A stretch of DNA of 35,161 nucleotides from Candidatus Woesearchaeota archaeon (lineage in GTDB: Archaea; Nanobdellota; Nanobdellia; Woesearchaeales; GW2011-AR4): contig JACOUX010000009.1 in the NCBI GenBank assembly GCA_016177615.1, forward strand, positions 1 through 35,161, read 5' to 3'. The notes under the pieces are model-generated. The model was not told where the DNA came from. It saw nothing but the letters and a program-made list of their open reading frames with translations, and made no database searches. Shown here piece after piece: positions 13,345-32,476 of the stretch. How positions within the stretch are numbered: position 1 is the first letter of the stretch; each line of letters opens with the position of its first letter. The translations under genes were made by a program, and so were the position numbers.

Positions 13345-13752
13345 ATGGGAAGAACTCATCCGCTGTTCAATTTGGGGACTAACGCACTTAAAACAGGGGC
13401 AGAATCAGGAATAATACTGGCATTGCTTAAGGATAGCTATACAAAGTGCAGATTGTGCGGAGGAGGCTCATGGACCCAGGAGTCTAAAGGGGTTTTAACA
13501 GACAATGGTGATTCCGGAACATCCATTAAAGATTTAGTTGATAGTGCGATGTCTGATCCCCACACAAGAGGCTTCTTACTGGGATCTGAAGAAGCACGAG
13601 AATATTTTAAAGAATTAGGCGGACAATTTGATGACGGATGTTATTCGGGACTTTATTCGATTCGCGGGAGGACTTTTCTTATTTTGGAACCTGAAGATGG
13701 CTCACTTTTAAAAAAAAACATAATCAACTATGCACCTCATACCTCAGTATAG
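13345..13752 (+). CDS. Hypothetical protein, 135 aa, convergent overlap with aRF1
   Basis: Soluble, with one CRLCGGG motif near residue 35 and no TM. No family recognised. The TATA-like TTTATAAAATA lies about 33 nt before the ATG, which supports expression. Its last 29 nt overlap the 3' end of the aRF1 gene on the other strand, a tail-to-tail overlap that may produce antisense 3' ends. It reads like a genuine protein (balanced composition, start with promoter) but I cannot assign a role. Confidence 0.55.
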   Translation: MGRTHPLFNLGTNALKTGAESGIILALLKDSYTKCRLCGGGSWTQESKGVLTDNGDSGTSIKDLVDSAMSDPHTRGFLLGSEEAREYFKELGGQFDDGCYSGLYSIRGRTFLILEPEDGSLLKKNIINYAPHTSV

Positions 13753-15235
13753 CAGCAACCTTTCCCAAATCCCTTAATTGGGCGCCTTCCCTTGTCTGTG
13801 TTGATATGATTTTGACATTTGTTCCTACTGGCTTTGCAGCATCTTCAAACTCCTCAATCTTTTCATCGCTTAAGGCTTCAGAAAGCAATAAAATATCAAC
13901 AACTCCCATCTTCAGCTTGCTCATGACATCAGCTTCACCATAGGAAACCATGTTCTGCCTCTTGGCAAGCGTCTCAAGGAACTTCCCCACAATCTTTTTC
14001 TCTTCCATCACATCTTCCTGGGCAAGCAAATCGTCGCTTTTCTCCAGGAGCTCCTCAAGGCCAAATTCGCCTGTGTAGCTCAAATCCTTTATCCCTATTA
14101 TCTTTTTCTTGACTTCATTGGTTATAAAATCGCCATCAACAAAATCATATTTTGTAGGCCCGGGCCCGCCAACTATAATCCCCTTCAACCCATCCATCTT
14201 GAGGAATGTTTCCTTCATGTATTCCCCGACTTTCTTGTAGTGGTCTTTTGCAGCGCCTTCTATCTGCCTGCTAAATCTCATTGCTGAGTTATGAACAATT
14301 ATTCCATTTGCTATGAAATTCTGGTTTTTTACAGAAATGTCTATCAAATCAAATTCACCATCTTCAATGGTTATATTTGTAATTTTATCTTCCGATACTT
14401 TCATATTTTTTACAAAAAATAAATTATCCCCGACTTTCAGATTTTTTGCAGGAATTTCCACTTCTTCATTATTCTTTTTAACAAAAAAAGTATGATTTCG
14501 GGAGCATTTTATTTCAGAATTTTTGGTTTTTATTTTGTATGACTCACTTACTTTTTTTTCCCAAAAATCCAGACACGAAGCATTCTTAAGGATTTTATTT
14601 TTGAAATCATAAGTTATTAAATTATTTCCAACCTGAAATTCACCAATTGGCACCGTAACATTCTCATCAACAAGAATTTTAGTGTCAGGATGAAGGCATT
14701 GCCCGCCGGCCTTGAACTTTCCGGGAACTTCAGAATGCGTCTTGACTAATGGAATGATTGATTTACCTTTCAACAGAGCGATATTTGCGTCCCTTCTGTC
14801 CATCACAACAAGGCCATAGACTTCTTTTGCCTCCATCATTTCTCTTAAGATGTCCAGAACAAACTCCTTGTCGCACCTGTAAATTCTTGTTTTTAAAGGA
14901 ACAGGCGGCTCGATACTCCAGACCTTGAAATCCTGCTGGCCTTCCCTTTCAGCGACATTGCCTGAGAAAACACACAATCCATTTGGCGGCGTCCTCTTAA
15001 ATAGCTTCAAATGCTGTATCATTCTTTCAAGAGCATCTGTTACATTTTTTCTGGTTGCAGAAGACTTTATGTTGGATGCAGTCCCCTGCTCCTGCGCAAG
15101 GTGGTTGATTATCTTGTTTAAATCGTAATCCTGCGGCACATAGACACTAACTAATTCCGTATGCCTTCCCCTGTACATTTCCAATTCCTTTATGAATTTC
15201 TTCAGGTGAAACTTCTGCGCTTCTGTTAGTGACAT
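13724..15235 (-). CDS. prf1: Peptide chain release factor aRF1, interrupted by a mini-intein
   Basis: 503 aa from ATG 15235, about 366 aa after removal of the intein. It recognises all three stop codons and triggers peptidyl-tRNA hydrolysis. Domain 1 has NIKS at 55-58 and the YRCDKEF stop-codon motif at about 119; domain 2 has the catalytic GGQ at 177-179; domain 3 follows. The sequence GGQ-SAMRF, contiguous in other aRF1 proteins, is split by a 137-residue intein (C180-N316). An upstream in-frame ATG at 15244 exists, but the TATA box (TTTATAAA, about 15260-15267) lies 29 nt before 15235 and only 20 nt before 15244, which favours 15235. Activity requires protein splicing. Confidence 0.95.
   Translation of the reverse strand: MSLTEAQKFHLKKFIKELEMYRGRHTELVSVYVPQDYDLNKIINHLAQEQGTASNIKSSATRKNVTDALERMIQHLKLFKRTPPNGLCVFSGNVAEREGQQDFKVWSIEPPVPLKTRIYRCDKEFVLDILREMMEAKEVYGLVVMDRRDANIALLKGKSIIPLVKTHSEVPGKFKAGGQCLHPDTKILVDENVTVPIGEFQVGNNLITYDFKNKILKNASCLDFWEKKVSESYKIKTKNSEIKCSRNHTFFVKKNNEEVEIPAKNLKVGDNLFFVKNMKVSEDKITNITIEDGEFDLIDISVKNQNFIANGIIVHNSAMRFSRQIEGAAKDHYKKVGEYMKETFLKMDGLKGIIVGGPGPTKYDFVDGDFITNEVKKKIIGIKDLSYTGEFGLEELLEKSDDLLAQEDVMEEKKIVGKFLETLAKRQNMVSYGEADVMSKLKMGVVDILLLSEALSDEKIEEFEDAAKPVGTNVKIISTQTREGAQLRDLGKVAAILRYEVHS
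14288..14698 (-). other. Mini-intein in aRF1 at the GGQ site
   Basis: 137 residues, beginning CLHPDTKILV (splicing block A, nucleophile Cys1) and ending in NFIANGIIVHN (block F with block G His-Asn), followed by Ser as the +1 extein nucleophile. Block B is represented by SRNHTFFV with its His. No LAGLIDADG or other homing endonuclease is present: the space between blocks B and F is only about 55 residues. Flanking exteins join as KAGGQ/SAMRF, an exact match to uninterrupted aRF1. All splicing residues are present, so it should be active. Confidence 0.93.
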
Positions 15236-15274
15236 TTTATGCATTAGAAATAATGATGGTTTATAAAGATTGAG

Positions 15275-28984: not shown

Positions 28985-30640
28985 ATGGCAGCGCAGCAAT
29001 CAGAAACTCCAATAGCGTATGAACTGGCTAAAAAGCAGAAGGAAATTTCAGTAGCCGAATTCTTCACAAAAAACAGGCATTTGCTGGGATTTGACAATAA
29101 GAGAAAGGCGCTTTTGATGGCAGTGAAAGAGGCCGTCGACAATTCTCTCGATGCATGCGAGGAAGCAAGGATATTGCCAGAAATCAGCGCTGAAATCATC
29201 CAGATGGCGGAATTCAAATACAAAGTCGTCATTGAAGATAATGGGCCCGGCATAGTAAAAAAACAGATTCCGAATATCTTTGCCAAGCTGCTTTACGGAA
29301 GCAAGTTCCACACATTGCGCCAAGCCCGCGGCCAGCAGGGAATTGGGATAAGCGCGGCAGTCCTCTACTCACAACTGACTACAGGAAGGCCAGCTAAAAT
29401 TACTTCAAGAGTTTCAAAAAAAGAGCCAGCACATTACTATGAGCTTGGGATTGACACTCAAAGCAACAAGCCCATGATTGCAAAAGAAAGCGAAGTTGAA
29501 TGGCCAAAAGAGCATGGAACCAGGGTAGAAATAGATCTGGAGGGGGAGTACCTAAAGGGAAGTCAGTCGGTTGATGAATATTTGAAACAAACTGCCGTAA
29601 TTAACCCGCATGTTACCATTATATACACAAATCCGAAATCAGAGCAGGTGATCTATGCAAGGGCAACTGACAAGCTGCCTGAGCAGGCCCAGGAAATCAA
29701 GCCTCATCCTTATGGGATAGAGATGGGAATGCTCATAGACAAGCTGCGCTGGACAGAATCAAGGACCTTGCAAAGCTTCCTGACATCAGAATTCTCAAGG
29801 GTCGGGCCAGGAACAGCAAAGGAGATTTGCCAGCATGCCGCTGTTTTGCCGAATACAAAGCCAAGCGAAGTAAGCAGGGACATGGCTGAAAAGCTGATAC
29901 AGGGCATCCAGAAGACAAAAATAATCGCGCCTCCTACAGACTGCCTTAGCCCGATTGGGGAAGAGGCACTTGAAAAAGGGCTTCGAAAGGAGATTAAAGC
30001 AGAGTTCTATTGCGCGAAATCAAGGCCGCCTGCTGTCTACAGGGGCAATCCTTTTATTATAGAGGTCGCAATTGGATGGGGGGGCGAAATTCCGAAAGAG
30101 GAGAAAGCAAATATTTTGAGATTTGCAAATCGAGTTCCATTGCTTTATCAGGAAGGGGCATGCGGCATGACAAAATCAATTATGGAAACAAACTGGAAAG
30201 CCTACGGGCTGCAGCAAAGCGGGGAATCAGTTCCTTATGGTCCTGTTGTCATCCTCGTGCACATGGCATCTGTTTGGGTTCCGTTTACAAGCGAGAGCAA
30301 GGAGGCAATCGCGCATTACGACGAGATAAAAAAGGAGATCAAGCTTGCAGTGCAGGAATGCGGCAGGCTGCTTGGCTCCTACGTAAGGAAAAAGACGAGA
30401 ATAAGCGACCAGATTGAAAGGGCCAATATGTTTGAGAAGTACATTCCGGAGGTTGCAGACTCTCTTGCAGTTTTGAGCAATGGCAAAAAAGAAAAGATAC
30501 TTCAGGGGCTGCAGAAGATGCTTGTGAAGCCGGAAATCAGGCAGGAAATAATAGAGGAAGGGGATTCTGACGATAAGCTGTACAGGATGGAGTTCAAGAA
30601 AGAAGCTGAAAATGAAGAAGCAAGACAAGAAGCCAGTTAA
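28985..30640 (+). CDS. top6B: DNA topoisomerase VI subunit B
   Basis: 551 aa. GHKL ATPase of the type IIB topoisomerase: N-box [17 protein letters not shown]1 box IEDNGPGI, G2 box [19 protein letters not shown], then the transducer domain with the Lys loop [13 protein letters not shown]. The C-terminus ends near 551 without the extra Ig-like domain seen in some archaea. It relaxes supercoils and decatenates with Top6A. The subunit A start lies 29 nt inside its 3' end. Confidence 0.97.
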
Positions 30641-31700
30641 GGAGCTTGAATCTTTTGGGCAAAAGCTCGTTACAGACATTGAAAAAGGCAAAAATCCCAC
30701 TATAGAATTTTCGCTGAGGTCTTTAAGCAATGTAGTTTATGACACAAAAACAAAAACCCTGGGATTGGGGGAGAAGCAGCAGCAAAGAGCATTCTTCAAT
30801 GTCGGCCATGCAAAGAAGTTCCTGCAGACATTGGAGATAGCAAAGATAAGCAAAAATCTTCTTGACGTAGGAAAGCATGCCAGCTTAAGAGATGTTTTTT
30901 ACATGGCAAAAAGGACTTTGCCAAGTTCTAATATAAACATAGTTGACGATCAAGTAGAATCGGATAAGTCATTGGAGGACCTCGAATTAATAACAGACTG
31001 CTCGCGCGAGCAGCTGAACATTAATGCAAACAAGATGGGCTCTGTTGCAGGAAACGTGGTCATTGAGGATTCGGGAGATTCAATCAACTGGGCAAAGCTG
31101 GGAAGCGGGGGCTGGAGCATCCCTTCAAATGTCGAGGATGTAGAGTTCAAAAGCGTCAAGGCAAAATATGTGATATACATGGAAAAGCAGGCTGTGTGGG
31201 AAAGGCTGCATGAAGACAAGTTCTGGGAGAAGCAGAACTGCATAATTGTAACATCGCAAGGGCAGACTACAAGGGGAATCAGGAGGCTTCTGCAGAGGCT
31301 TAATGACGAGTATGACCTTCCGATTTATGTTCTTGCTGACTTTGATCCCTGGGGATTTTATATCTATTCTGTTTTGAAGTTCGGCTCCATAAACCTAGCC
31401 CACATGTCCGGCACAATGACATTGCAGAACGCGAGATTCCTTGGCGTTACGGCAGATGATGCATTAAACTACGACCTAAAGAAGCATTTCATTAAATTTA
31501 AGGATGTGGACATGACAAGGCTTAAGCAGATTGCAGACTACGAATGGTTCCAGAAGAACAAGGACTGGCAGAGGCAGTTCAAGCTCATGAAGGACTTCGG
31601 AGCAAAATTGGAAATACAGGCTTTGAGCTCAAAAGGCATAACATTTATATCTGAGAAGTACCTTCCTGAGAAGATAAAGAAGCAGGAGTTTTTAGATTAA
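30612..31700 (+). CDS. top6A: DNA topoisomerase VI subunit A (Spo11-like)
   Basis: 362 aa. The 5Y-CAP domain contains the cleavage tyrosine Y97 in [14 protein letters not shown]. The TOPRIM domain shows E191 (IYMEKQAVW) and D243/D245 ([10 protein letters not shown]). These are the residues used for the two-strand break with 5' covalent linkage. It starts within the top6B end (29-nt overlap), which supports translational coupling and 1:1 synthesis. Confidence 0.97.
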
Positions 31701-32197: not shown

Positions 32198-32247
32198 AAT
32201 GCTGATTTCTTTTATTTTTTAAAAAAACGCGCCAGGGAGGATTCGAA

Positions 32248-32277
32248 TTCGGGATGAAAGAGTGTAACTCAATCATG
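32248..32277 (-). other. tRNA-Arg intron 2, 30 nt, at position 53/54
   Basis: CGGG (variable loop/T stem) pairs with CCCG near the intron end; bulges are GGC (GG/C) and AAU (AA/U), cut after the second base as expected. The inner helix is AUGA/UCAU followed by GAG/CUC. A regular outer helix is not visible, so it is a relaxed (hBH) form. The exon junction gives a standard T arm. Confidence 0.82.
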
Positions 32278-32302
32278 CCCCCGACCTACAGCTTAGAAGG
32301 CT

Positions 32303-32320
32303 TTAGCGTATATTCAATAT
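32303..32320 (-). other. tRNA-Arg intron 1, 18 nt, in the anticodon stem (28/29)
   Basis: The bulge-helix-bulge is formed by AGCG (exon, D-stem 3' end) with CGCU (intron end), four pairs, bulges ACA and AAA, cut after the second base (AC/A, AA/A). A short UAU/AUA inner stem closes the intron. The repeated A makes the cut equivalent to 29/30 in the product. Confidence 0.82.
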
Positions 32321-32476
32321 GTCGCTCTATCCAAGCTGAGCTACTGGCGCATATTCCAAGAGCAATAGTTATTGTTTATAAAAGTTGTTGAATTCAAAAT
32401 TCAAGCCTTCAAAAAAGAAATCTTTATATATATGCTTTTACAAAATCCCGATATAGAAATTAAAAAGGTGATTTTA

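Follow-up and report, generated by a model that had tools for sequence, protein, structure and literature searches.

How could a tRNA-Arg(UCU) gene that is interrupted twice outside position 37/38 give rise to a mature tRNA in a DPANN archaeon, and which enzymes would be at hand to splice it? The question is raised by a 123-nt locus in the window, i.e. the 35,161-nt stretch of Candidatus Woesearchaeota archaeon DNA analysed here, for which an earlier note had proposed a tRNA-Arg(UCU) split by two non-canonical introns. All bulge-helix-bulge (BHB) excisions were enumerated de novo, with the remaining RNA scored as a cloverleaf. The best parse is unique (score 107) and contains the same two introns; the runner-up (94.5) merely moves the second intron by 1 nt. 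Removal of the 18-nt and 30-nt inserts leaves a 75-nt cloverleaf with anticodon UCU, GCGCCAGTAGCTCAGCTTGGATAGAGCGACAGCCTTCTAAGCTGTAGGTCGGGGGTTCGAATCCTCCCTGGCGCG, in agreement with the regular tRNA predicted earlier. The gene lies on the minus strand, which had not been given before. We are highly confident that the locus is a functional tRNA-Arg(UCU) gene, probably present as a single copy, whose transcript would carry BHB introns at 28/29 and 53/54 (Table 1).

Table 1 Features of the tRNA-Arg(UCU) locus and its syntenic neighbour, in window coordinates.
Feature	Coordinates	Strand	Description	Basis or use
pre-tRNA-Arg(UCU) gene	32228..32350	-	123 nt; runs from 32350 (5' end) to discriminator G73 (32228)	de-novo parse, R1 model match, sub-threshold Rfam tRNA match at the same coordinates
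exon 1	32321..32350	-	positions 1-28, 30 nt	parse; identical in ortholog L058
intron 1	32303..32320	-	18 nt at 28/29, AUAUUGAAUAUACGCUAA	parse, shuffles, folding, orthologs
exon 2	32278..32302	-	positions 29-53, 25 nt, holds anticodon UCU	parse
intron 2	32248..32277	-	30 nt at 53/54	parse, shuffles, folding, ortholog L070
exon 3	32228..32247	-	positions 54-73, 20 nt, without encoded CCA	parse
TATA box	32375..32382	-	TTTATAAA, ~25-33 nt upstream of the tRNA 5' end	sequence
T7 tract	32221..32227	-	directly after G73, likely transcription terminator	sequence
topoisomerase VI subunit A (TopoVI-A)	30612..31700	+	syntenic neighbour	anchor in the search for orthologous tRNAs

Both introns display the archaeal BHB geometry that had been described, with 4-bp central helices and 3-nt bulges. 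The central helix of intron 1 is formed by AGCG of exon 1 and CGCU of the intron 3' part, with bulges AC↓A and AA↓A (arrows mark the predicted cut) and a 3-bp inner helix (UAU/AUA). In intron 2, CGGG of exon 2 pairs with CCCG of the intron 3' part, the bulges are GG↓C and AA↓U, and the inner helix comprises 4 bp (AUGA/UCAU). The earlier description can be refined in one respect, as the outer helix is absent (0 bp) from both. Judged by sequence, both introns are relaxed HBh' motifs and, with h = 0 bp and sites at 28/29 and 53/54, fall outside the strict hBHBh' 37/38 class. The window sequence alone would allow the 18-nt intron to slide by one A (28/29 or 29/30); it was placed at 28/29 because ortholog L062 fixes the site. 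When the intron letters were shuffled and the exons kept, 0.05% (28/29) and 0.15% (53/54) of shuffles combined a perfect central helix with a flanking helix of ≥3 bp. A shuffle test across 45 distinct ortholog introns found a perfect central helix in 36, compared to 1.9 expected, a ratio that is an upper bound and somewhat optimistic because the parser itself favours BHB motifs. Unconstrained ViennaRNA folding pairs the central helices with probabilities of 0.87-0.89 and 0.54-0.55, and places the double-BHB structure only 0.5 kcal/mol above the minimum. In the proposed mechanism, the splicing endonuclease EndA would accept these motifs without an outer helix and release each intron by cleavage behind the second nucleotide of both its 3-nt bulges. 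The exons would then be joined by an RNA ligase, in most relatives RtcB, to yield the 75-nt tRNA, which would read AGA codons.

Orthologous loci were sought through the neighbouring TopoVI-A gene. This search returned 64 loci, nearly all from Woesearchaeota or Nanoarchaeota-type archaea and the closest with 92% protein identity, confirming that the relatives are Woesearchaeota and that the DPANN placement suggested earlier was right. A tRNA-Arg(UCU) near TopoVI-A was parsed in 33 loci, window counted, with introns at 19-21, 28/29, 29/30, 30/31, 37/38, 42/43, 53/54 and 59/60; many orthologs contain two introns and three are intronless. A TATA-like AT-rich box at similar distance is located upstream of most orthologs, and many are T-rich downstream. 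The intron positions, which the earlier note had suggested seeking in related genomes, were both located there: L062 and L068 share the site of intron 1 and its CGCUAA↓A border but have different interiors, and L070 has, at the site of intron 2, a 31-nt intron of clearly similar sequence. A family model search gave four Arg loci with 28/29 introns, comprising two new Arg(UCU) genes (G039 and G041), an Arg(UCU) that is apparently the same locus as L062 (G013), and an Arg(CCU) (G021). The sister species L058 encodes an identical 75-nt mature tRNA interrupted at 37/38 and 42/43, the first of these introns having been placed by hand where the parser's top parse gave 35/36.

Comparison of 24 distinct mature sequences reveals that 98.8% of stem cells in the spliced cloverleaf are paired, with double-sided change in 10 of the 21 stem pairs. 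The covariation score of 0.438 exceeds those of shuffled (0.141) and slid partners (at most 0.102); relatedness inflates these scores, and the slid controls retain that relatedness. The pattern argues for purifying/compensatory selection on the spliced product. Together with the shuffles and the sharing of either intron by syntenic orthologs, these compensatory changes rule out coincidence. On the TopoVI-A tree, at least 12 changes are required at 37/38, at least three at 28/29 and at least two at 53/54, counts that are indicative only because resolution within the genus is poor, and in which gain, loss and tRNA gene exchange are not separated. The introns would form a fast-changing set across Woesearchaeota tRNA genes, with close relatives differing, through gain and loss or exchange, at many positions within one gene.

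Could the inserts instead be mutational debris in a decaying pseudogene, with tRNA-Arg(UCU) supplied by another gene? Standard tRNA finders do miss the gene: neither ARAGORN nor Rfam at gathering score reports a tRNA in the window, and the Rfam tRNA model reaches the locus only at 23 bits, below the cut-off. The earlier note had named an intact second tRNA-Arg(UCU), or decayed copies in relatives, as grounds for abandoning its proposal. A search of the 99.08%-complete genome with a model (R1) derived from 24 mature orthologs found no second Arg(UCU); the better-scoring matches were rejected as candidates, being Lys, Arg(CCU), Ile, Asn and an anomalous tRNA-like sequence on C13. Standard models missed other intron-rich tRNAs, so a second Arg(UCU) broken by long introns could be hidden. 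Arginine codons in 20 window ORFs are predominantly AGA (82) and AGG (159), with 23 CGN. In relatives the gene is conserved rather than decaying, and neither relaxed constraint nor an intact second copy, the marks of a tRNA pseudogene, was observed. The perfect BHB geometry at both inserts, the compensatory changes across the introns, the identical mature product of L058, and the presence of promoter and T tract all speak against decay, which we consider very improbable. An assembly or binning artefact is a still fainter prospect. The genome is a fragmented metagenome-derived assembly of 67 contigs, but the recurrence of intron 1 in L062/L068 and of intron 2 in L070, in independent assemblies with syntenic TopoVI-A, already refutes it. 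As far as sequence can tell, the locus encodes a genuine tRNA interrupted by two non-canonical BHB introns; it is of a known kind and not exceptional in its lineage.

The latter point is borne out by a census of the same genome. Among 26 clearly parsed tRNAs, 22 contain one or more introns (28 in total), 16 are interrupted outside 37/38 and six carry two introns; this census, drawn from Rfam and model matches and counted by eye from parser output, is incomplete, with several hard cases left out and tRNAs that no model found absent. The suggestion that two introns in one tRNA are unusual for such a genome does not stand, given these six tRNAs and the many syntenic orthologs with two. Non-canonical introns are most frequent at 59/60 and also occur at 10/11 in Gln, 15/16 and 19/20 in Glu, 19/20 in Thr(CGU) and Met, and 28/29 in Thr(GGU). 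For Leu/Ser tRNAs, the extra introns that the parser put into the long variable arm were discarded as artefacts. Further tRNA-like loci were seen in this assembly (G000): a tRNA-Ile (anticodon UAU) interrupted at 37/38 by a 35-nt intron (C5:18039-18148, minus strand), an apparent tRNA-Cys with an intron at 8/9 plus further introns (L178; C16:12102-12223, minus strand), and two tRNA-like sequences whose anticodon stem includes two T-T mismatches (C13:24220-24293 and C45:6089).

The intron load resembles that of Thermoproteales, where short BHB/HBh' introns occur at scattered sites including 29/30, 53/54 and 59/60, with up to three per tRNA (PMC8450103, PMC4090602). Introns per tRNA gene average 0.84 in that order and 0.21 over the archaea studied (PMC8450103), compared to 28 in 26 tRNAs here. 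The two groups belong to different phyla, Woesearchaeota being DPANN. In our search of non-subscription literature, the sole paper combining Woesearchaeota and tRNA introns concerned group I introns in rRNA genes.

We sought to identify the endonuclease, as the earlier note had supposed that introns outside 37/38 require an enzyme of broader specificity. The EndA found is alpha-type by sequence and not one of the known broad types. The window's genome contains one EndA gene (C21:87735-87995) encoding a single unit of 201 residues, in which the region with the catalytic Tyr, His and Lys is conserved (residues assigned by alignment to solved EndAs). The best structural-database match is the Nanoarchaeum equitans alpha chain (3iey_A, 1.3e-33), and M. 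jannaschii EndA is also among the best. The Crenarchaea-specific loop (CSL) is absent: the insertion of 2cv8 is missing, METJA 1a79 aligns at this site with a single-residue gap, and none of 17 aligned Woesearchaeota EndAs has the loop. A single gene with METJA-like sequence was seen; in the alpha4 (METJA-type) class one ~180-residue catalytic subunit acts as a homotetramer, a state that this enzyme may share. Neither a structural beta subunit, as in the (alpha-beta)2 class, nor the three fused units (~390 residues) of epsilon2 were detected. The predicted structure is of moderate confidence (mean pLDDT 75.9) and was left out of the conclusions.

These observations sit uneasily with the literature, which ties intron-rich, relaxed-motif tRNA sets to heteromeric or loop-bearing EndAs and reports that only (alpha-beta)2 and epsilon2 enzymes efficiently remove relaxed BHB introns, the METJA alpha4 enzyme being listed as narrow (PMC6379350). 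On sequence evidence, the processing system departs from this published association, and it counts against our reading that the only EndA appears to be of the reportedly narrow type (PMC6379350), yet both motifs lack an outer helix. Either this EndA has a wider substrate range than expected for its type, or splicing is aided by an unseen factor. The latter could be a divergent beta subunit that escaped detection, making this the usual broad (alpha-beta)2 enzyme acting on real introns. All characterised EndAs listed as broad are indeed (alpha-beta)2 or epsilon2 (PMC6379350), and beta subunits can be short and divergent (96 aa in Pyrobaculum). Against this, no second PF01974 match was found in the window's genome at E≤10. 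A Woesearchaeota EndA profile run over 24 genomes at the same threshold revealed no second full-length copy except in G012, which has two strong copies, both near contig starts, while G002 has a contig-end fragment. A PF02778 search added only weak sub-threshold matches, and G032, a single contig that is 100% complete, contains just one EndA. Furthermore, the EndA query matches the N. equitans beta chain at 1.7e-16, so a beta subunit of that kind should have been seen. We consider a hidden beta subunit or other factor unlikely, if a serious contender, and favour splicing by the alpha-type EndA itself.

Several other archaea offer points of comparison. The crenarchaeal enzyme is (alpha-beta)2 with a CSL, unlike the CSL-free alpha-type EndA found here without a detectable beta subunit. 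N. equitans is likewise a DPANN archaeon with disrupted tRNAs, and its EndA alpha is the closest structural match, but it has an (alpha-beta)2 enzyme and split tRNAs where we observe cis introns and no beta subunit. Micrarchaeum ARMAN-2, also DPANN with varied introns, has an epsilon2 EndA reported to cut relaxed motifs (PMC12397907); that enzyme, however, consists of three units (~390 residues) with an ASL loop, in contrast to the 201-residue single unit found here.

The ligation step raises a question of its own. RtcB was found in 31 of the 39 genomes searched, several of the eight without it being incomplete. Neither profile nor protein search detected RtcB in the window's own 99%-complete assembly, although tRNA introns abound there, and seven further genomes of the 39 lack it too; for the joining step in the window's genome, this counts against our reading. 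An ATP-dependent RNA ligase (PF09414) was considered as a substitute and gave no match there. Within the same genus, rtcB genes contain one or two 12-33-nt inserts that introduce stops or frameshifts. Removing BHB-like inserts restores the conserved RtcB protein in L163 (G003), L164 (G009), L165 (G006), L166 (G001) and L169 (G012), and removal of two inserts does so in L168 (G016, JACPJQ010000004.1); L167 is left out of this count. The inserts cluster in the conserved active-site region PDGHWGYG...GGIGFDINCG. Their geometry is strong at sites near residues 78 and 105 (0.0002 of shuffles as good at each), and weak near residues 75 (one helix mismatch, 0.051) and 100 (0.050). If these are BHB introns in active-site codons, active ligase would be made only after its own message is spliced. 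No report of BHB introns in rtcB was recognised among the papers listed by our search of non-subscription literature. Separately, the open frame of rtcB in L170 (G019 C18) spans 992 aa and includes a large insertion, probably an intein, and the window itself encodes an aRF1 release factor (13724..15244, minus strand) with an apparent mini-intein directly after the GGQ motif (CLHPDTK...IIVHN).

A possible origin of new introns is suggested by a repeated element. The window's genome contains six copies of the motif AACCTTTT..AAAGCTTNACC, compared to zero matches to the reversed control. Inspection by eye places five copies within tRNA genes (C41:11366, C41:12888, C46:6897, C62:38127 and C65:53677): the host intron is in the D-loop for Ala(GGC), Met and Glu(CTC), and in the T-loop for one Val-like and one Ser-like tRNA; the sixth copy (C48:9759) is outside any recognised tRNA. 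The motif is also present inside the 37/38 intron of Arg(UCU) in L078 (5766) and beside the gene in L062 and L067. In L055, L059, L062 and L072, the 3' end of tRNA-Arg is repeated 67-86 nt downstream, the two copies being separated by a small element, and a 59/60 intron that uses the distal end is an alternative reading of these loci. The elements resemble insertion at tRNA 3' ends, and we hypothesise a link to intron gain. A model for the disrupted tRNA-Thr of Caldiarchaeum similarly involves direct repeats of tRNA ends and repeated elements near disrupted tRNA genes (PMC3293823), while the elements described here are ~80-110 nt, contain no genes and in some cases lie inside introns of several tRNAs.

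Taken together, we regard the case as evenly balanced for a broader proposal: that Woesearchaeota splice a relaxed intron load of Thermoproteales scale by a single-subunit alpha-type EndA without CSL or beta subunit, against the published rule; that the rtcB mRNA of some same-genus genomes carries BHB introns in active-site codons; and that 80-110-nt elements in tRNA introns and beside the tRNA 3' ends of relatives may seed new introns. The default tools tried here miss such tRNAs, and DPANN genomes may wrongly seem to lack them. Combining this intron load with one loop-less alpha-type EndA, the lineage would allow a direct in-vitro test of the published rule that uses only the 201-residue protein and the 123-nt RNA. 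Differing introns interrupt a nearly constant mature tRNA at the syntenic tRNA-Arg(UCU) locus of close species, which would offer a dense natural series for the study of intron gain and loss.
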